NCBI GenBank assembly: GCA_016795425.1
Contig: JAEUHG010000028.1
Coordinates: forward strand, 1-64,000
DNA: 64,000 bases
DNA from: Verrucomicrobiales bacterium
GTDB lineage: Bacteria > Verrucomicrobiota > Verrucomicrobiia > Limisphaerales > CAIMTB01
Direction: 5' to 3'
The position numbers were made by a program, and so were the translations under genes. Below are positions 53,607-63,572 of this stretch, piece after piece (positions within the stretch are counted from its first letter, which is position 1; each line of letters starts with the position of its first letter). The notes below the pieces were generated by a model, which was given only the letters and a program-made list of their open reading frames with translations, did not search any database and was not told where the DNA came from.

Positions 53607-55970
53607 CTAAGGTTGTGACGGATCTGCATTGGTGGGGGCGGCGTTGGTCGGAGACGGAACGGCCGCCGCTGGCGCGGGAGTCAAACCGTAGCGTCGCATC
53701 AGTTCAGGGCTCATCGATGGCGCCGACGGTTGGGACGGATTCGCTGGCTCTGTCGACGGCGGTGTTGTCCCCAGGTGCCAGGTTACGAGCCCATAACGCG
53801 CCGCCAAAGCCGGGTCGAGCAGGATTTGCTGGGCACTGCCGGGAGGTGGCGTCGATGGGGTCGGTCGAGGTGGGAGTTCGGAGTCGGGGATGGGGGGCAG
53901 GTTGGCTTCCAGGCGCAGGGCTTCTCGGACCTCATGGGGAATTCGGGCCTGGCGCACGATGGTTTCGCGGTCTTCCACCGTGAGAGGCAGCGAGAAATTG
54001 CGATAGACCCATTGATGGACCTGGGGTTGGTCGGTGGTGGCCAAGGCGTTCGACGACGCGACGGGTGTCCAAACCAGCAGGTTGACTCCTCGGACTCCGA
54101 GCGGGATCAAACCGATCGTCGGCGTTCGCCACAGACGTTCCTCAGCACGTGATAGAAGGTCGCGATAGCGTGCGGTATCCCACGCCATGACCATGCGATG
54201 CTCATAGTTCGAGCGGGCCCGGTCCGTGGCCTGAAGGGCGAGGGCGCCGACGACACACGCGAAGAAGAACAACAAGGAGGCGACGATTTGGAGACGCAGA
54301 CGTCGCACCGCTTGCATAGGAGCGATGAAGTTCCTCCAGGAAAAGAACCAGGGCAGAACCAACGGGAGAAACACCAGGATGAGGCCCAGGATCGCAGTCC
54401 AGGGGCTCCCGACGGTGAGGCGATGGCGCAACGCCTCGATGCTGTCGGCTCCCAAGGCATTGGCCTGTGTGATCCAATGTTCGGGGTCTTGGCCTCCGAA
54501 CATGAGGTGAGTGGTGTCCGCGATGCGCGGGCCGATGGTCCATTGGAAGGTCAAGAGGACCTGGGTGACTGCGGAGAGCACGATGGAAAGAATGAGGGCC
54601 CGCAAGGTGCTGGTGGATCCCGAGGAGGCGAGGAAGGACATCGTGAATGCCCAGGCGCAAGCGGTCAGAACCAAGGGAAGGGGCGGGCGATCGACAAAGG
54701 GGCCACTTGGCAGAGCCACCGCGATGGTCCAGGCGGCAGGAACCGCCAGGAGGAGGCAGACAACGACCTTAAGCCACCACTGCAAACCGCGGCTCGCCGG
54801 CAACAGCAGTTGGCCATCGAGAGTCCCGAGCCGGCGTTCCTCAGCGAGCGAAGTGGCTCCCGCGAAGATCAGGGTCGCCGCACCAAAGAGGATCACCAGT
54901 CCATTGAGGTATTCCCGCAGGTAGGAAATGCTCATTTGGTTCGCCAGATTCGCGACGAGCAGCGCGGACACCAACGATAGGCCAAGCGTGGCCCAGGTGA
55001 CGGTTTGCAGTCGGATCTCTTTCAACAGCAATTTCCAAACCGGCCCCCGAGGAAAGGCGGGTGCGAGCCAGCTGCAGCGGATCCCCTGGGCGAAGATCCC
55101 CTCGCGCTCCAGGGATGCGCCGTCACGAGCTTCGAGACGGATCCATCGGCGAAGGGTTCCCCAAAGGCCGAGCGCGGCGCCGACCGGGGGAAGCACGGTC
55201 GCCAGGACAGAACTCACCCCGGAGACCCACGTTCTCAGGTTCGGGTAGTGCTCTGGGTCGGCATCGCTGAGGGAGTATCCTTGAGCCGCCAACCAGCCCC
55301 AGACCACGGCGATCACCAGCGGAACCACGCCGGCGAACACCATGCCGGGCAACACCCCACGCGTGACGAGGGTCCACCACGGGGTTGTGCCCGCAACCGC
55401 AAATCCGATGGCCAAACCGATCAACACGTCGATCGAGGGTTCAAAGGACCCCAGGGTCGACTGCCATGCCACCAGGAAGAGGACAGTGTGCGTCCCCACC
55501 GCCAGGCCAAGCATCTGAAGCTTCTCCGTCGCGATTCGACGTCGATCGACGGGTTGGGTGAGCAGTGCCGCCAGGGTTCGGTGCTGGAACTCGATACCGA
55601 AGGGGATCGCCGCCAGGAGGGCGCACGTCGCCGTGTAAACGATCATGGCCACCGTGGGGCTGATGGAATCCACCACCAGCGGAACCTGCGCCACGAAGAG
55701 GCTCGCCAGCCAAGGGCCGAGCAATTGCTCGGCCTCCTTGCGCCGGTGGCGCCCCAGGGACTCGAGGAACGAGGGCAACCCCAGGGCGATCACCGACCCG
55801 GCGAGGGTGAGCACGATCAACCAGCCCATTTTCCAAGCAAGAAAGTCATACCAGGACGATTCCGAAAGGACGCGGTTGAGGCTGACAAGGAGAGGCAGGA
55901 CGGGGAGCAGCAGCGCCACGTAGCTCACTGGGATACGAAAGACTCGGGGTGAGGCCAGGCTAAGGGTCAT
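53607..55970 (-). CDS. ABC-2-like permease, third paralogue
   Basis: 787 residues from the ATG at 55970 (an upstream in-frame start is less likely). It has roughly twelve hydrophobic segments in two halves. Landmarks shared with the two upstream permeases are IPFGIEFQHRTLAALLTQP, TRGVLPGMVF, KEIRLQTVT and SLAEERRLGTLDGQLLLPAS. After the last membrane segment comes a ~180-residue tail with the shared element SLPLTVEDRETIV...RIPHEVREALRLEA. A Pro/Thr/Ser-rich end contains ALAARYGL and ELMRRYGL. It is the last gene of the GntR-ABC operon, 31 bases after the second permease. The substrate is not known. Confidence 0.85.
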   Translation of the reverse strand: MTLSLASPRVFRIPVSYVALLLPVLPLLVSLNRVLSESSWYDFLAWKMGWLIVLTLAGSVIALGLPSFLESLGRHRRKEAEQLLGPWLASLFVAQVPLVVDSISPTVAMIVYTATCALLAAIPFGIEFQHRTLAALLTQPVDRRRIATEKLQMLGLAVGTHTVLFLVAWQSTLGSFEPSIDVLIGLAIGFAVAGTTPWWTLVTRGVLPGMVFAGVVPLVIAVVWGWLAAQGYSLSDADPEHYPNLRTWVSGVSSVLATVLPPVGAALGLWGTLRRWIRLEARDGASLEREGIFAQGIRCSWLAPAFPRGPVWKLLLKEIRLQTVTWATLGLSLVSALLVANLANQMSISYLREYLNGLVILFGAATLIFAGATSLAEERRLGTLDGQLLLPASRGLQWWLKVVVCLLLAVPAAWTIAVALPSGPFVDRPPLPLVLTACAWAFTMSFLASSGSTSTLRALILSIVLSAVTQVLLTFQWTIGPRIADTTHLMFGGQDPEHWITQANALGADSIEALRHRLTVGSPWTAILGLILVFLPLVLPWFFSWRNFIAPMQAVRRLRLQIVASLLFFFACVVGALALQATDRARSNYEHRMVMAWDTARYRDLLSRAEERLWRTPTIGLIPLGVRGVNLLVWTPVASSNALATTDQPQVHQWVYRNFSLPLTVEDRETIVRQARIPHEVREALRLEANLPPIPDSELPPRPTPSTPPPGSAQQILLDPALAARYGLVTWHLGTTPPSTEPANPSQPSAPSMSPELMRRYGLTPAPAAAVPSPTNAAPTNADPSQP

Positions 55971-56001
55971 GGTGGGGAGGGGGTGATGCTGTGGATGACG
56001 T

Positions 56002-58071
56002 TCAAGGCGCGGGTTCGCTGGCAACCTCGCGTCGCAGCGCCTCACGCAGGGCTTCATCAATGCGGGTCCCCTCGATTACCAGACGCCGGTCGGCGTCGGA
56101 AAGGGGCAGCGGGAACCAGGCCCAACGGCCGGTGGCGGTCTTTCGGACACGGCGTTGCCCCACGTCGGCCGATGGAATCAGCTCGAGTTCCACGGCCCGA
56201 CTCCAAACCCATTGGCGGTTCTGGCGGTACCGTTGTTGCAGTTCGATGTCCGTGGGTCCGAGTCGCTTGGACCACTGGGCGTGATGCCATGAGGCCACCA
56301 GCAGTTCGGCCTCGGATTTGCGGTGGAAAACCCAGATGGCGTTGGCGCAACTGAGTGCCGTGCTGACGATTAGGCTCACGGCCATCACCAGATTCTGACG
56401 ACGCCACTGATGCTCCGCCTGCGCGGGACGGTCAAAATTGCGTCGCGCCAGGATCAGCGCGACTCCCAATGGGAGCACGGCAAGAGCCGCGCCGATGGCG
56501 AACACCCTTGGATTGAAGGCCTCGAGCTTCCCGGCGCGTTGCACCATCGCCTCGATCGCGGGTAGCCCAAGGGCTTGTGCCTTTCGTAGCCAAACCTCCT
56601 GGGCGGCCAAAGTGGGAATCTCGAACAAGTGATCCGAGATGCGCATGGTCTCGTTTCGGGTGTATTGACTGGCGAGCTGCAGGACGATGGCCGCACCCGC
56701 CGTCCAAGCGATGGCCCAGAGGAGCGCCTTGAGCGGATGGGCCCGTGCCGAAGACGACCAACACGCAAAGGGAAAGGAGGCCAATAGGCACCAGATGGTC
56801 AGGGCCAGGGCAGCGTCGCCGGAACCGCGTGGCAGTTGTGCGCGAAGTGCGATCGCGCCGATGCCGATCGCCAGTCCTGCGAGTCCGGCGGCGACAGTGA
56901 ATTTGATCCACCATTGAACGGTGAGGGACGCGGGGATGAGGAGTTGGGAATCGCGGGTGCCCAGTCGCTGTTCCTCGGCAATCATTGTGACACCGGAAAG
57001 CAGGGCGATGGTTCCGCAGAGGAGGATCAGACCGTAGGTCAGTGTCTCCTGTTGCAGGTTTGCGCGATGATTCCAGACCTCTGCTGCCGCCAACGGAATC
57101 AGCAATGCGACGGCGATCAAGGTGACCGACTGGAGGCGAAGTTCCTTGACCCAGAGTTGCGCCAGGCTGCCGCGCCGGCGTTGGTGCGTCTGGACGCCTC
57201 GTCGCGGTCCGCGCAGGAAAAGTCCCGCGCCCAGCTCGAATTGCCCGTCCGCTGCCTCGAGGCAGTTCCATTTGCGGTAGCTACCAATGAGTGCGGCTGC
57301 GGCGTAGAGCGGAAACAGTCCCCAAATGACACCGGTACTCACCCACTGGATCAATCGCTCGGCTTCTGGAGTCGACTCAGGCCAGCTCACCCAATGCGCG
57401 ACGGCGATCACCGGAATCAACGCCAGGGCTGGAAGAGTCATCGAGAAGACGAGGCCAGGCAGCATTCCGCGCGCAAGGAGTGTCAGCCACGGCGTGGCCG
57501 CCCATGCCACCAAGACACCCAGCGCCAAAACGCGAATCAGTGGCCAGTCCAGGTCGTAACCACAAGCCAGCCAGGAAAGGAGCAACAGAATGCCGCCGGT
57601 GCTCAGAGCAACGCCGGGGACCATCATCTTGATCCACCAAATTCGCGAGCGCAGGGTCGGTTGGCTCAGAAGGTGGCCAACTGTGCGGTGCTGAAATTCC
57701 ACGCCGAATGGGATGGCGGAAAGGAGAAGCGCGCTCGCCATCAGAACCACCGCCCCAAACGCGTCCCCGTCTTTCGGATCCAGCACCGAGCATTGTCCGG
57801 CCAGCATCAGGATCATCCAGGGCCAGCGAAGTTGCTCGATCTCTTTGCGAATCAAAGCGGGCTGCCTCGCGATCCAACCGGGTAATCGAAAGGCGAGGAC
57901 TCCGGCCGCGAGGCATAACCAAACCAGGCTCAAGGCCTGAATTGGACCCGATGCCCTTTCGATGCCCGCGACGTCCAGCCATGTCGCAGTCCAGGGAAGG
58001 ACCGGCAGGAGCAACAGGAGATGCCAGGCCTTGGTTCGGCCCAACCTGGGAATGGGAAGCGCGAAGGTCAT
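56002..58071 (-). CDS. ABC-2-like permease, second paralogue
   Basis: 689 residues, ATG at 58071, 21 bases after the first permease. It has the same membrane layout and landmarks (IPFGVEFQHRTVGHLLSQP, ARGMLPGLVF, KELRLQSVT, MIAEEQRLGTRDSQLLIPAS). The tail stops right after the shared element PLSDADRRLVIEGTRIDEALREALRREVASEP. The Pro-rich extension and RYGL motifs present in the other two are missing. As a long duplicated-type permease it probably forms a hetero-oligomer with its neighbours and the shared ATPase. Confidence 0.85.
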   Translation of the reverse strand: MTFALPIPRLGRTKAWHLLLLLPVLPWTATWLDVAGIERASGPIQALSLVWLCLAAGVLAFRLPGWIARQPALIRKEIEQLRWPWMILMLAGQCSVLDPKDGDAFGAVVLMASALLLSAIPFGVEFQHRTVGHLLSQPTLRSRIWWIKMMVPGVALSTGGILLLLSWLACGYDLDWPLIRVLALGVLVAWAATPWLTLLARGMLPGLVFSMTLPALALIPVIAVAHWVSWPESTPEAERLIQWVSTGVIWGLFPLYAAAALIGSYRKWNCLEAADGQFELGAGLFLRGPRRGVQTHQRRRGSLAQLWVKELRLQSVTLIAVALLIPLAAAEVWNHRANLQQETLTYGLILLCGTIALLSGVTMIAEEQRLGTRDSQLLIPASLTVQWWIKFTVAAGLAGLAIGIGAIALRAQLPRGSGDAALALTIWCLLASFPFACWSSSARAHPLKALLWAIAWTAGAAIVLQLASQYTRNETMRISDHLFEIPTLAAQEVWLRKAQALGLPAIEAMVQRAGKLEAFNPRVFAIGAALAVLPLGVALILARRNFDRPAQAEHQWRRQNLVMAVSLIVSTALSCANAIWVFHRKSEAELLVASWHHAQWSKRLGPTDIELQQRYRQNRQWVWSRAVELELIPSADVGQRRVRKTATGRWAWFPLPLSDADRRLVIEGTRIDEALREALRREVASEPAP

Positions 58072-58092
58072 CGGATGGGTCGGAAAAGGGGC

Positions 58093-60270
58093 TCAAGGCG
58101 CCTTGTCGGTGTTCGTGGCCGTCGGACGGTTGGTCGCCTTGGAGGGTGCCATTAACCCGTAGCGTCGCATGAGGATGGTTCCGTTGAGGAGATTCGGAGG
58201 CGGCAGGGGATTCCCCAATCGTCGGGCACGCAGAGGATCATCAATGGGCGGCGGCGCTGGCTCCGGCGGCGGCGAGCCGGTGATCACGTCGCCCTCCGAG
58301 GCGGCCTCGCTGCGCAGGACGGCGCGCAAGTTCTCCGAGATACGACCCTGCTCGACCACCAGACGACGCCCCGCGCGGTTCAGTGGCAGCGTGAATGCCA
58401 CGCCAACGTCTTTGTGGATACCGGGTCGGTCATCAAACACGCGCACCATGATCTCCATGTCAAAGGCATCGGTTCGATGTCGCTCCCACAGTTCCTGTTG
58501 GCCCGGGGAAAGTTGGAGGAGCAAGCGCTGGACTTCAGCGGCGCGCATCAGCCAATGCGCCTCGGATTGTGCGCGAGTAACCAGGGTGTCAATCGCCGCC
58601 CCGGTGAACGTCAGGGCTCCGACGAGGCCAAGGCTGACCGAGGCCTGGCGGCTCCAGCGGGCGAGGCCGGATGGGGGACGGAGAAAGTTGCGGCGCGCCA
58701 TCGAAAGTGCGGCGGCAGCTCCAAGAACCGCCGGGAGGACGGTCACCCAACGCGAGCCTCCCCAATTCATCCAATCCAACTTCACTTGGAGGCGGGAAAG
58801 ATCCGCGTCGGACAGCGTCGCGGCCTTCTGGCGCAAGGCCCCATGTTCGCTGTAGGCATTGACTTGAGCATGTTGTCGGGCGGCATCCGGGCCGAGGAGG
58901 TTGCCGGCAGCCATGACGATCCAAAAGGCGACCAGGAACACGGCCAAGGTGTTGACCAAGGCGCTGAGGGTCGTTCGACTGGTGGTGGACGCCAGGCAAC
59001 CGATCGCGAAGAAGGCGAGACCGATCAATCCAACGTCGAGAATCTGACCGAGGACCCCATGCCAGTCGCGTGCTGTGCCTCCCGGAAGCCCGCCGTTGGT
59101 GACGTCAGGCAACATCAAGGACACCAAAGCGATGAGGGCGAGCCCGGCCGCGATGCCGATCTTGATCGACCACTGCCGCGTCTTCGACGCCGGGAGTACC
59201 AGCAGTTGGTCGAGTGTGCCCAAGCGGCGTTCCTCGGCGACCATGGTGGTGGCGGCTAACAGCACCGTCGTGAAGGCGAAGAGAAGAGAAACGGCGAAAG
59301 CCCACTCCCAGTTCTGCAACCAAGGCCGCGCCGCGGCGAACCCCACGGCAAAGAGAAGGTTCAGAACAGTGACCGTCTGTAACCGCAGTTCCTTGATGAT
59401 CGTCGAGATCGTCGGCGACCGTGTCGGCGCGGATGTCGTTGAGGAACGGACCAACGACGGCAGAAACACTCCGGTTCGCTCCGAGCCCGTGGATTCGATG
59501 GCTTCCAGTCGGTGCCAACAACGATTCCCGAAAGCCAGACCCACCAGACCGTAGCCGATCGCCCAGGGCCAGATTTCTTCGGGCGCAGGGAAATTAAGGT
59601 CCAACACCAGGCCGAGGCCCAAAATCACGGTGAGCGGCGCCGCGAGTGAGAAGATCATGCCGGGCAGGAGACCCCGCGTCACCAAGGTCCAGGTCGTCGT
59701 CGTGCCCCACGCCATGATTGCCAAGGCGAGCAACCAGAGACCGAGGTCCAAGTGCAGTTCACCCGTGCGCGCGGTCAGCGAGAAGGTGAACACCAGGGTC
59801 AGACTTCCCAACGCCCCTGCCAACAGCCCCATTTTTCGCCACCACGTTTCCCGTCGATCAATCGGTTGCGAGAGCAGGCCTCCCATCGTCCCATGGTGGA
59901 ACTCGTAACCGAAAGGGATGGCGCCCAGCAGGCACGCGGACAGCGCCAGCAAGATCATCGCGATCTGGATGCCGCTGTTATCGCCAGCCAGGAGCGGCGC
60001 TTGAACCGCGAAAAGGGACACCAACCAGGGAACCCGGAATGGATCGGCCTCTTTGCGCCATACTGGCGAGCCGTGCTCCAGGAAGTAGGGCAGTCCCAGG
60101 CCAACGAGCAGGCCCAAGGCGAACAGGGCGACGACGCTGCCCACTCGCGCGCCGGGGTCGATGCCCTCGGTTGGATAGACCAAACCGAGCCACGGCAAGA
60201 CCGGCAACAGCAGCGCCAGGTTCCAAAGCGAGAGGCGAATCTCGCGGCGGTGAACGACAACGGTGGTCAT
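58093..60270 (-). CDS. ABC-2-like permease, first paralogue
   Basis: 725 residues from ATG 60270. A TTG at 60357 overlaps the ATPase stop by four bases and cannot be excluded, but its 29 extra residues look non-coding. Landmarks are IPFGYEFHHGTMGGLLSQP, TRGLLPGMIF, KELRLQTVT and MVAEERRLGTLDQLLVLPAS. The tail has PLNRAGRRLVVEQGRISENLRAVLRSEA, then a Pro-rich stretch and ILMRRYGLMAP near the end. It lies 83 bases after the ATPase, in the same operon. Confidence 0.85.
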   Translation of the reverse strand: MTTVVVHRREIRLSLWNLALLLPVLPWLGLVYPTEGIDPGARVGSVVALFALGLLVGLGLPYFLEHGSPVWRKEADPFRVPWLVSLFAVQAPLLAGDNSGIQIAMILLALSACLLGAIPFGYEFHHGTMGGLLSQPIDRRETWWRKMGLLAGALGSLTLVFTFSLTARTGELHLDLGLWLLALAIMAWGTTTTWTLVTRGLLPGMIFSLAAPLTVILGLGLVLDLNFPAPEEIWPWAIGYGLVGLAFGNRCWHRLEAIESTGSERTGVFLPSLVRSSTTSAPTRSPTISTIIKELRLQTVTVLNLLFAVGFAAARPWLQNWEWAFAVSLLFAFTTVLLAATTMVAEERRLGTLDQLLVLPASKTRQWSIKIGIAAGLALIALVSLMLPDVTNGGLPGGTARDWHGVLGQILDVGLIGLAFFAIGCLASTTSRTTLSALVNTLAVFLVAFWIVMAAGNLLGPDAARQHAQVNAYSEHGALRQKAATLSDADLSRLQVKLDWMNWGGSRWVTVLPAVLGAAAALSMARRNFLRPPSGLARWSRQASVSLGLVGALTFTGAAIDTLVTRAQSEAHWLMRAAEVQRLLLQLSPGQQELWERHRTDAFDMEIMVRVFDDRPGIHKDVGVAFTLPLNRAGRRLVVEQGRISENLRAVLRSEAASEGDVITGSPPPEPAPPPIDDPLRARRLGNPLPPPNLLNGTILMRRYGLMAPSKATNRPTATNTDKAP

Positions 60271-60353
60271 GCTGGGAGTTCCTGGTTGAGCGTCGGGTGA
60301 AGGATGGTTCCGAACGCGGGTCTCGTCCGACACCGGGCGGAGACCCGGATGCT

Positions 60354-61247
60354 TCAAGCCTGGTCGGCCACGACAAAAATCTCCTCGAGCGACAGCGCTT
60401 CGGTGCTGACATCCTCGGGTTGGAATCGTTGAAGCTCGGCCACGACCTGTTCGGTAGCACCGTTGGTGACCAACTCGACTTCACGGCCCTTGCGGGATTG
60501 CTTCAAGACGCCGGGAAGATCGATCCGTGGCGGGTCGGAGGTGAACCGGACGCGCACCTTGCGGAACTTTGAACGCGCCTCGTCGGCATCCAGGGTCATC
60601 GTCGCCTTACCGTTCTCGATGATCGTAAACCGATCGATCAATCCTTCGAACTCGCTGATCAGGTGGGTGGATACAAAGACCGTGCGACGACCCGGGTCGG
60701 CGTCCTGGTAGGCCCCGATGACCGCTTCGATGAATTCACGGCGAACAATGGGGTCCAGTCCTGAAGTGGGCTCGTCGAGCACCAGCAATTCCGGTTCCGC
60801 GCAGATCGCCGCAATCAATGCCAATTGCGTGCGCTGTCCCTTCGACAACCCGCTCACCGGCTTCTGGGCGTCGAGGCGAAATCGATTCAGGAGATCGGAT
60901 TCCGCTTCGGTATTCCACCTGGACCGAAACGACGCGGAGTAATCGAGTGCCTCGCGGGCCGTCATCCAGGGATAAAACGCGACCTGATCCGGGACGTAGG
61001 CGAGGCGCCTTTTGACTTCGAGTTCGTCCTTGGCGGGATCGAGTCCGAAGACACGGACGCTGCCGGCGTCGGGGCGAAGCAAGTTCAGCAGGCACTTGAT
61101 GGTGGTGGTCTTGCCGGCGCCGTTGCGCCCGAAGAACCCGTAACAGGTCCCGGCTGGGACCGTCAGGTCCAGGCCGTGGACCGCCTCGGTTTTGCCGAAT
61201 CGTCGCACCAAACCCTGGATGGCAATGGCTGGAGTGGGGGAGGTCAT
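60354..61247 (-). CDS. ABC transporter ATP-binding protein
   Basis: 297 residues from ATG 61247; an in-frame start at 61304 would overlap the regulator gene. Walker A is GRNGAGKTT (40-48), the signature is LSKGQ (134-138), Walker B is LLVLDEP (154-160), and the H-loop His is H195 in STHLISEFE. The type is that of BcrA/YtrB-like exporters, with a ~90-residue C-terminal extension. It should power the three membrane proteins encoded downstream. It begins 28 bases after the GntR gene. Confidence 0.95.
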   Translation of the reverse strand: MTSPTPAIAIQGLVRRFGKTEAVHGLDLTVPAGTCYGFFGRNGAGKTTTIKCLLNLLRPDAGSVRVFGLDPAKDELEVKRRLAYVPDQVAFYPWMTAREALDYSASFRSRWNTEAESDLLNRFRLDAQKPVSGLSKGQRTQLALIAAICAEPELLVLDEPTSGLDPIVRREFIEAVIGAYQDADPGRRTVFVSTHLISEFEGLIDRFTIIENGKATMTLDADEARSKFRKVRVRFTSDPPRIDLPGVLKQSRKGREVELVTNGATEQVVAELQRFQPEDVSTEALSLEEIFVVADQA

Positions 61248-61275
61248 AGGATCAGTCCTGGCATTGGGAAAGGTT

Positions 61276-61689
61276 CTAATTGCCGGGCACGGGTTCGTTG
61301 TCACGGCGGGCGCTGCGGAAGTGCTCGATCCGGGCCCGAAGTAGGGACAGCACTTCTTCGTCGCGGACCTGGAGGTGGTGCGCCTGAACGACCACGCTGT
61401 CGATCAGGGGAACCAGCATTTCGGCGCGGGCGGCCTTGTGAAAACGCGTCTGGCCGTTGCGCAGGAAGCAACCCTTGCCCGGCCGGGTCTCGATCACGCC
61501 CTCGCGTTCGAGTTCAAGATAGGCTTTGGCGACAGTGTTGCGATTGACGCGGAGTTCTTCGGCCAAAGGCCGAATTCCGGGAAGGGGCTCGCCGGATTGC
61601 AGCGCCCCGGACGCGGCGGCCGCCTTGATTTGGTCCATGATCTGCGCATAGACCGGTTGGCCGAGATCGAATTGGACCTGGATCCGCAT
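61276..61689 (-). CDS. GntR-family transcriptional regulator, YtrA type
   Basis: 137 residues, ATG 61689. The winged helix-turn-helix occupies about 10-77 (PVYAQIMDQIK, LPGIRPLAEELRVNRNTVAKAY, LEREGVIETRPGKGCFL). The C-terminal part is only ~60 residues, the mark of the YtrA subfamily, which usually represses an adjacent ABC exporter until the right compound is present. It is the first gene of this operon. A palindrome overlapping its promoter (61703-61722) is the obvious operator. Confidence 0.92.
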   Translation of the reverse strand: MRIQVQFDLGQPVYAQIMDQIKAAAASGALQSGEPLPGIRPLAEELRVNRNTVAKAYLELEREGVIETRPGKGCFLRNGQTRFHKAARAEMLVPLIDSVVVQAHHLQVRDEEVLSLLRARIEHFRSARRDNEPVPGN

Positions 61690-61804: not shown

Positions 61805-63535
61805 TCAGGTCGGCTTCTTGGGATTCAGGGCGGCGTCCAGCACCTGATCGAGATCGATCAAGGAATCCCGCGAAGGTCGTTCCGGTGGCTGGGGGCGTCG
61901 TTCGGGGCGTTTCGCGGGTTGGGGTGCGCGTGAGGTCGGTTTGGGATGGGTGGCAGCTGCTGAGGGCGGCGGCACCGGCGTGACGACTCGGCGTTCCGAG
62001 GCGGGAGCTTCGGCGAGCACGCGAGCCTTGGCCGCGAACCGTTCCTGGGCGGCGGCGAAGGTGAGGCGGGAATTCAGAAAGGGACGCAACCAATCGCGAA
62101 CTCGATCGCCGGCTTCGGCGTTCTCCTCCCACTCCAAAACGGTGGCGGAACCGGCCTTGGAGAGGGTTCGGATGGCGCTCGGGTCCAGGCCTCCGATGCC
62201 GGCCACGAGCAAGCACCAATCCGAGGTGGGGCGGGCCTTCTCCTCGGCGGGAAGACGGAAAAAGGCGCGTTCACCTTGAACCCAGAGGAGCCAGTTTTGT
62301 CGGCGGTCCCTTTGGATCCTATCGAGAAGCAGGTCCGCGTTGAGATACAACGGGTCGGCATTCGCCGCGCGTTGCTGGCGCAGCGCCTCGGGCTCGGGAC
62401 CGAACAGTCGCACCCGGCCGGTTCCCGCGAGATGCGCCTTCAGGAGGCGTTCGATCTCCGCGCCTTCGGCCGGCAAAGGGAGGTCGAGAAGTTCGGCCAG
62501 TCGGCTGGGGAGATCGCTCATGGCCGGTTCGTCGACCAATTGAAGTCCGCGCGATTCAGCCAAGGCCAGGGTCGCGGGGCGGCATCGAAGGGTCGGTCGC
62601 AACAGGATCCATTCAGGGGAAAGCGGTTTGAGGCGACTTCGCAGGCGAACGGCCTGGTCCATCTCGGCGATCCATGTGGCGTCGCTCTCGGCATCGGAAT
62701 CCTGTGGCGCCGCGGCGCCGCCCAGGAAGGTATCGATAATAATGAATCGGCCTCCGGCATGGATGGAGATCCATTCGACGCGCCTCGCGCCGGCATTCTC
62801 CGGCGGGATGGTGCCGCGCCCGATGGAGGCTCCTTCGCGGAGCATGATGCGGATAAGGTCCGCAATGAACCATTGGAAGAGGGTGCTTTCGGTGGCGGCG
62901 CCGACTTCGAGTTGGACGGATGCGAGCGCATTGCGCCAGTGCCAGTCGTTTTGGATCGCCGCCTGAACCACCGGCACCAGCGGCAACGCGGCGGTCGGTG
63001 GTGGCAGAACCTGCCAGGAACCGCTACCGGCGGGTGTCACGGCACGGATCAGATCGGCCGCCATGAATCGGTCGGTGACGCCTCGTTGAATGTCGGGCAA
63101 TGCCTTGGCGGCAGGATTCCCTGCGTCGTCCCGAATCCATTCGGTCCATCCTCCGGTTCGGGACCGGGTCCAAACGCGGATGTTCTCGCGTCCGAGCCAA
63201 GGATCGATGCCCCAGGCTTCCCAACCTGCGGCGTTGTCCAGGCAAATCACCCAACGCTGATCCGGGTCGTCCGGCGTGATCCAAGAGGCCAACTGTGCGC
63301 GCAGGTCCGCCGGCGTCGGCGTTCCGCGTTTCAGCTCCAGCTTCATTTCGGGCTGGGCGACACGGGCCAGGCGTTCCAGGGCATCACCCGGGGAGATCGC
63401 CAGGTCGTACGCGGCGGATTGGTAGATGGAGAGACGGGTGAGGGTCTCGCCCGTGGAAAGAAAATGGGCGAAACACTGAAGCCCCGGCCAGAGGGTGTCT
63501 TCAGCGACAACGACAAGATGCAACGACGTCGACAT
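61805..63535 (-). CDS. Protein of unknown function; possible degenerate CARF-nuclease (Card1/DUF1887-like)
   Basis: 576 residues, ATG 63535. The N-terminal ~140 residues start with an alternating beta/alpha pattern (LHLVVVAEDT ... WVICLDN). At 99-107 they have LDNAAGWEA, where CARF proteins carry an N-x-x-GGTK-like motif. A middle part (about 215-350) has TLFQWFIADLIRIML, then RRVEWISIHAGGRFIIIDTFL, then a helical end (ALAESRGLQLVDE ... LPSRLAELL). This matches the layout of a PD-(D/E)xK nuclease in Card1-type proteins. However, the D...ExK residues read E254...D268-T-F, so the lysine is missing. An added domain and a Pro-rich tail (about 505-560) follow. The family link is my pattern reading and is uncertain; it could be another alpha/beta protein. 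It lies 37 bases after the partial membrane gene. Confidence 0.4.
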   Translation of the reverse strand: MSTSLHLVVVAEDTLWPGLQCFAHFLSTGETLTRLSIYQSAAYDLAISPGDALERLARVAQPEMKLELKRGTPTPADLRAQLASWITPDDPDQRWVICLDNAAGWEAWGIDPWLGRENIRVWTRSRTGGWTEWIRDDAGNPAAKALPDIQRGVTDRFMAADLIRAVTPAGSGSWQVLPPPTAALPLVPVVQAAIQNDWHWRNALASVQLEVGAATESTLFQWFIADLIRIMLREGASIGRGTIPPENAGARRVEWISIHAGGRFIIIDTFLGGAAAPQDSDAESDATWIAEMDQAVRLRSRLKPLSPEWILLRPTLRCRPATLALAESRGLQLVDEPAMSDLPSRLAELLDLPLPAEGAEIERLLKAHLAGTGRVRLFGPEPEALRQQRAANADPLYLNADLLLDRIQRDRRQNWLLWVQGERAFFRLPAEEKARPTSDWCLLVAGIGGLDPSAIRTLSKAGSATVLEWEENAEAGDRVRDWLRPFLNSRLTFAAAQERFAAKARVLAEAPASERRVVTPVPPPSAAATHPKPTSRAPQPAKRPERRPQPPERPSRDSLIDLDQVLDAALNPKKPT

Positions 63536-63572
63536 ACGGAACGGCGACAGTGTCGCCGACCGCTGTCAGGAC

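Follow-up and report, generated by a model that had tools for sequence, protein, structure and literature searches.

A degenerate CARF nuclease family outside CRISPR loci in Verrucomicrobiota with probable descent from a type III effector

An orphan gene, its relatives and its surroundings

We analysed a 64,000-nucleotide stretch of Verrucomicrobiota DNA (hereafter the window) that carries, on its minus strand, an open reading frame with an ATG start encoding a protein of 576 residues (Table 1). The position given to this frame in an earlier sequence-only reading of the window was exact, and its reading frame was confirmed: three of the four other genomes compared from the same genus encode orthologues with 34–38% identity to the window protein, all of them open frames with no internal stops, and the remaining genome, which has no orthologue, is only 82% complete. 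A second Verrucomicrobiota family, from the same order, contributes three further full-length members, for a total of seven full-length frames of 558–615 aa in seven genomes and two families, again with no internal stops. Thirty alignment columns are invariant across the seven members, including W16, G262, A326, an RxQNW motif and positions in the C-terminal helix. The absence of internal stops from orthologues at this level of identity shows that this is a real, conserved coding gene. The family diverges fast, with core (CARF plus nuclease) identity of 28–35% within the genus against 67–72% for the neighbouring secretin and 36–71% for intact CARF4 nucleases compared across families. Searches of Pfam, NCBIfam and the PDB (phmmer) with the single window protein gave no matches, and a scan of the genome collection with the same query gave nothing, so that family profiles were needed; the scan repeated with the family alignment recovered five relatives, the named records being Verrucomicrobiota MAGs.

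A cotranscribed membrane protein had been suggested as a partner of the gene, and a CvpA-like gene does lie 37 nt upstream on the same strand, itself preceded by a secretin gene. The adjacency is not conserved, however, in a neighbourhood survey of the homologues. In genomes G001, G002 and G003 the CvpA gene follows the secretin with no CARF-like gene, and in G001, G003 and G004 the CARF-like gene and the secretin are on different contigs, the former with unrelated genes around it. Because it follows the secretin without the CARF-like gene in these relatives, we rejected the CvpA-like protein as a conserved partner; its gene belongs to the secretin operon. That operon (L005:8174-15099, from window position 64173 onward) includes two prepilin-like genes and PilN/O/P-like proteins without a Pfam match. 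Between the CvpA-like and CARF-like genes, positions 63543–63557 form a perfect dyad, GGCGACAxTGTCGCC, predicted to fold into a strong hairpin (z −3.1), the outer stem of which lies over the start codon; the dyad was not found near the orthologues. Elsewhere in the window, a cluster at 53607–61689 encodes a GntR regulator and an ABC ATPase, along with three ABC-2-type membrane proteins of very large size (754, 689 and 817 aa, the 689-aa protein having no Pfam match), and positions 44677–44730 encode tandem repeats of the GGDGNDILL type known from RTX calcium-binding proteins.

Neither a CRISPR array nor a cas gene was seen near the window gene or any of the other six copies, in agreement with the original placement of the gene outside any CRISPR locus. 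The same genome holds a type III locus on another contig (L064 (G000:C145):742-11979), comprising an RT-Cas1 fusion, a short Cas10/Cmr2, RAMP genes, about seven 38-nt repeats in two groups with 67–70-nt spacing, and an intact CARF4 nuclease (L064:742-1896:-). A further intact Card1/Can2-like gene of this genome, L024 (G000:C23), apparently stands alone, the 16 kb read containing no array. The window protein shares 13% identity with the CARF4 paralogue of its own genome. Of the seven host genomes, five yielded a Cas10; none was found in G003 or G004, both of which carry the gene and are fragmented MAGs of 92% completeness.

Table 1. Features of the degenerate CARF-nuclease gene and the adjoining gene, in window coordinates
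Feature	Position	Strand	Basis
Degenerate CARF-nuclease gene (pseudo-Card1/Can2) with C-terminal extension	61805..63535	-	ORF, orthologues, homology, predicted fold
CARF (Rossmann) domain, ~residues 1-146	63098..63535	-	AF2 pLDDT mostly 80-92; hhalign; A2 profile vs 8z4i CARF, E 0.03
Degenerate NxxGGxK position of CARF: C98, N101, A102, G104	63218..63247	-	residue table
PD-(D/E)xK nuclease-like domain, ~residues 180-351	62483..62998	-	AF2 secondary structure; Foldseek; hhalign
Q221, for helix glutamate kept in 21/21 intact relatives	62873..62875	-	residue table
Former catalytic strands: V253/W255 for ExD, D268-T-F270 for (D/E)xK	62726..62779	-	residue table
Add-on domain, residues 352-517, family-invariant RxQNW	61985..62482	-	alignment A5; AF2 pLDDT 77.9
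Pro-rich linker, predicted disordered, residues 518-557	61865..61984	-	pLDDT <50 over residues 516-557; Pro-rich in all members
Conserved C-terminal helix, residues 558-570 (L.DLD..LD.A)	61826..61864	-	predicted helix; invariant L559, L562, D567
CvpA-like membrane protein, 189 aa	63573..64000 (to contig position 64142)	-	Pfam Colicin_V E 2.8e-4, below cut-off

Predicted fold and homology to CARF4 nucleases

We modelled the window protein with AlphaFold2 from a six-sequence alignment and obtained a mean pLDDT of 73.6; over the first 370 residues most values lay between 75 and 92. The model begins with a Rossmann-type domain that extends to about residue 146 and continues in the order helix-strand-strand-strand-helix-strand-helix-strand, as in PD-(D/E)xK nucleases. 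Foldseek comparison with the PDB placed CARF–PD-(D/E)xK proteins at all of ranks 1–13, ahead of every unrelated entry, namely Card1 (including apo Card1), VC1899, Cdn1, Can2 and Can1, with E-values of 5.2e-11 for Card1 6xl1 (the best match), 1.6e-10 for VC1899 1xmx and 3.8e-7 for Can1 6SCE; the best structural matches in the CARF4 clade were 6xl1, 6wxw, 9u49 and 8bao. A family profile searched against PDB sequences had a single match at E <10, to the CARF domain of Cdn1 (8z4i, E 0.03). Profile–profile comparison of the window family with the intact CARF nucleases of the order using hhalign gave 98.6% probability and E 1.2e-15 over residues 1–272, a span reaching into both domains, and aligned both degenerate motifs with their intact counterparts. 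Structure prediction and profile comparison thus each recovered the CARF and PD-(D/E)xK folds, upholding the Card1/DUF1887-like architecture proposed from the letters of the sequence, and the window protein is predicted to combine the two folds in the same domain order as Card1 and Can2.

The family profile, run against the order, also brought up bridge proteins of 393–414 aa (L039-L042, L044, L046 and L047). With few exceptions they retain NFTGGNKLM at the CARF motif and ExD...DCK at the nuclease motif, and they match both Pfam CARF_Card1 and PADLOC CARF4--CARF_PDDEXK (best E 6.7e-24). The window protein matched no Pfam family, none of the seven members matched CARF_Card1, Card1_endonuc or another CARF model of Pfam, and matches of the members to CARF4 models (three of seven) or CARF_PDDEXK models (one of seven) were weak, with a best E of 1.3e-4. 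The same search of the order returned two 133-aa frames, L043 and L045, matching model positions 177–251; L043 lies antisense to a glycogen-branching-enzyme-like frame and was read as a chance match. The intact CARF4 nuclease at L042 is immediately preceded by a second CARF-type frame (L042:52-1281), TIGR02710-like by eye.

Degenerate sites and C-terminal additions

To assign motif positions we used a 28-sequence alignment that includes intact CARF nucleases. Residues 99–107 (LDNAAGWEA) align with the NxxGGxK motif and residues 253–270 (VEWISI...IIIDTF) with the ExD...D/ExK motif, so that the two alterations singled out in the sequence-only reading, of N-x-x-GGTK and of ExK, both proved correct. 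With Q221, V253, W255 and F270 replacing catalytic residues, the nuclease of the window protein is probably dead, as had been supposed; among the catalytic residues only D268 of (D/E)xK remains. Fourteen columns of the alignment are near-invariant, defined as kept in at least 19 of 21 intact relatives, and most of these belong to the cA4 pocket or the nuclease site. At 13 of them the window protein is changed, A326 alone being kept. The cA4 contacts common to Can1 and Can2 are Ser19, Thr42, Lys99 and Tyr118 (PMC7969007), and the window protein has E12, S40, G104 and T123 at the Can2 positions, with a polar residue kept at that of Thr42. The known cyclic-oligoadenylate contacts are thus lost, and the protein may, as the sequence-only reading proposed, have been recruited for a different signal.

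Across the family, the helix (alpha-1) glutamate and the second CARF glycine are lost in seven of seven members and the CARF lysine in six, while W16, G262 and A326, which are scaffold positions, are unchanged in every member. The ExD aspartate is gone in all four members from the genus and kept in the three others, and the catalytic lysine of the four has become F, R, V or R. L014 keeps the phosphate-binding lysine and serine. With ExD...DxK retained in L012, loss of the nuclease may not extend to the whole family. The pattern looks stepwise, with the ligand pocket apparently lost first.

The extra domain anticipated by the sequence-only reading is present as an add-on domain of about 165 residues, which was modelled on its own at pLDDT 77.9 (Table 1) and for which a PDB fold search gave no match below E 0.001. 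Across 293 genomes of the order the domain was not found outside the family, two weak matches (G085 and G196) apart; that in G085 sits in an HsdS-like frame and was set aside. All seven members have the add-on domain, the Pro-rich tail and the terminal helix, in which L559, L562 and D567 are invariant in every member. The intact CARF4 relatives in the order stop near residue 400, without the add-on domain.

Descent and possible role

A class-wide search recovered a 515-aa protein, L078 (G416:C78), from another order of the same class (E 1.7e-39), in which every CARF and nuclease motif residue is present. L078 is the closest intact relative of the window family, the two aligning over about 340 residues (hhalign E 6.4e-24), and it is encoded in a type III-B locus with cmr4 (E 3.2e-52), cmr6, cmr1, csm6 (1.9e-70), cas1 (5.9e-61), an array of ten CRISPR repeats at 72–73-nt spacing and a second CARF nuclease. 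In a maximum-likelihood tree rooted on Card1/Can2, the seven degenerate proteins form one clade (99/97), L078 is sister to that clade (99/95), and the two together join the CARF4 nucleases at 100/99. Because the closest intact relative is motif-complete inside a type III-B locus, and from its placement in the tree, sequence comparison strongly indicates that the window family arose from a type III CRISPR nuclease and is a former CRISPR effector; that the family descends from a CARF4 effector and has lost both sites we hold to be very probable. The tail of L078 is similar in length to the C-terminal part of the window family, and hhalign of the add-on domain with the C-terminal 170 aa of L078 found no homology (probability 0.2%). 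In the type III-B locus at L081 (G416:C78):8323-11132, the 515-aa link protein stands in tandem with a second CARF nuclease, Can2-like and of 425 aa, and the locus also carries a Csm6 ring nuclease.

Known systems offer precedents for each part of this history. The closest is VC1899 (PDB 1XMX), an orphan DUF1887/CARF protein of Vibrio cholerae that, like the window protein, combines CARF and PD-(D/E)xK domains outside type III CRISPR; its cA4 contact residues are replaced and its nuclease residues Glu291/Asp293 are kept (PMC7969007), whereas the window protein has lost its own nuclease residues and, compared with the 380 aa of VC1899, adds a C-terminal domain and tail. Can1 (PDB 6SCE) has a nuclease-like domain with the nuclease fold but without the canonical active-site residues (PMC6981274). 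Can1 joins this dead half to a live one and does bind cA4, whereas the window protein is degenerate throughout and has no live half fused to it. Card1, Can2 and Cdn1, the CARF4 nucleases activated by cyclic oligoadenylate (cOA), have the two-domain fold and profile homology in common with the window protein, which unlike them has no intact cOA pocket or active site, no type III locus and about 200 extra residues. L078, the sister of the family and similar in length, differs by its complete motifs and its type III-B neighbours.

We propose that a paralogue of a type III effector nuclease of the CARF4 (Can2/Card1) class left its CRISPR locus and would have lost cyclic-oligoadenylate recognition first and nuclease catalysis next, with its two-domain fold kept. 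In this scheme dimers would form through the CARF/nuclease core, as they do in Card1 and Can2, partners would be bound by the add-on domain and by the terminal helix on its tether, and nucleic acid may still lodge in the former nuclease cleft but would not be cut. As both sites are lost and the gene is intact in related bacteria, the protein probably has a non-cutting job. On the basis of architecture, its role may be that of a non-cutting, oligoadenylate-independent homodimeric scaffold, which we put forward tentatively, and we consider the whole chain of descent, loss of both sites and scaffold role reasonably probable. A slightly more tentative formulation is that a type III effector was exapted as a non-immune, non-catalytic adaptor, in which the CARF core would sense a new signal or none, the extra C-terminal domain, of unknown fold, would carry the new function, and the terminal helix would dock to a cellular partner.

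Among the alternatives, a protein that is still a sensor or nuclease is unlikely, although less so than the others. Its CARF domain would bind another nucleotide or small ligand, with the nuclease or C-terminal domain active in a different way, and the kept fold, D268, the ExD...DxK of L012 and the polar residue at the Thr42 position are all consistent with such activity. Yet the helix glutamate and ExD aspartate are gone and the catalytic lysine is replaced in the four genus members, and mutations in the nuclease site abolish activity both in Can2 (E276/D278; PMC7969007) and, for each residue, in Cdn1 (E308, D310 and E323; PMC12825302). The type III locus of the genome itself, with its Cas10, array and intact CARF nuclease, together with the intact L024 and the homodimeric nature of Card1/Can2-class enzymes (PMC7969007, PMC12825302), would fit a regulator of type III signalling, that is, an inactive subunit that heterodimerises with an intact CARF nuclease, or a cOA buffer, and so dampens toxicity. 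We judge this improbable: S40 at Thr42 is the only contact position kept, with E12, G104 and T123 at Ser19, Lys99 and Tyr118; identity to the resident CARF4 paralogue is so low that a shared dimer interface is unlikely; and G003 and G004 keep the gene, yet no Cas10 was found there.

The low core identity within the genus, set against that of the secretin and of intact CARF4 nucleases, could instead reflect relaxed constraint on a decaying gene heading towards a pseudogene, but full-length frames of 558–615 aa in seven genomes of two families, with no internal stops and 30 invariant columns, make this very improbable. We give even less credence to a partnership with the adjoining CvpA-like membrane protein or the secretin apparatus. 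The 37-nt gap, the common strand and the secretin encoded in the upstream operon had made such a partnership worth considering, and the neighbourhood survey largely refuted it, the CvpA–secretin pair occurring without the gene in three genomes and the gene lying on a different contig from the secretin in G001, G003 and G004.

A non-cutting scaffold or adaptor of type III descent would represent a class of CARF pseudoenzyme that is without description in the CARF literature compared, the Makarova 2020 list of inactivated members lying outside that comparison. Orphan CARF proteins such as VC1899 pose the puzzle of what role such a protein has once uncoupled from cyclic oligoadenylate signalling. 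The proteins described here form a graded series, from the intact L078 in a type III-B locus, through members in which the ligand site is lost and the nuclease partly kept, to the genus in which both are gone, and the family adds a C-terminal domain that is absent from the rest of CARF4. Together, the graded series and the add-on domain open exaptation of a CRISPR effector to direct tests on a natural before-and-after pair.
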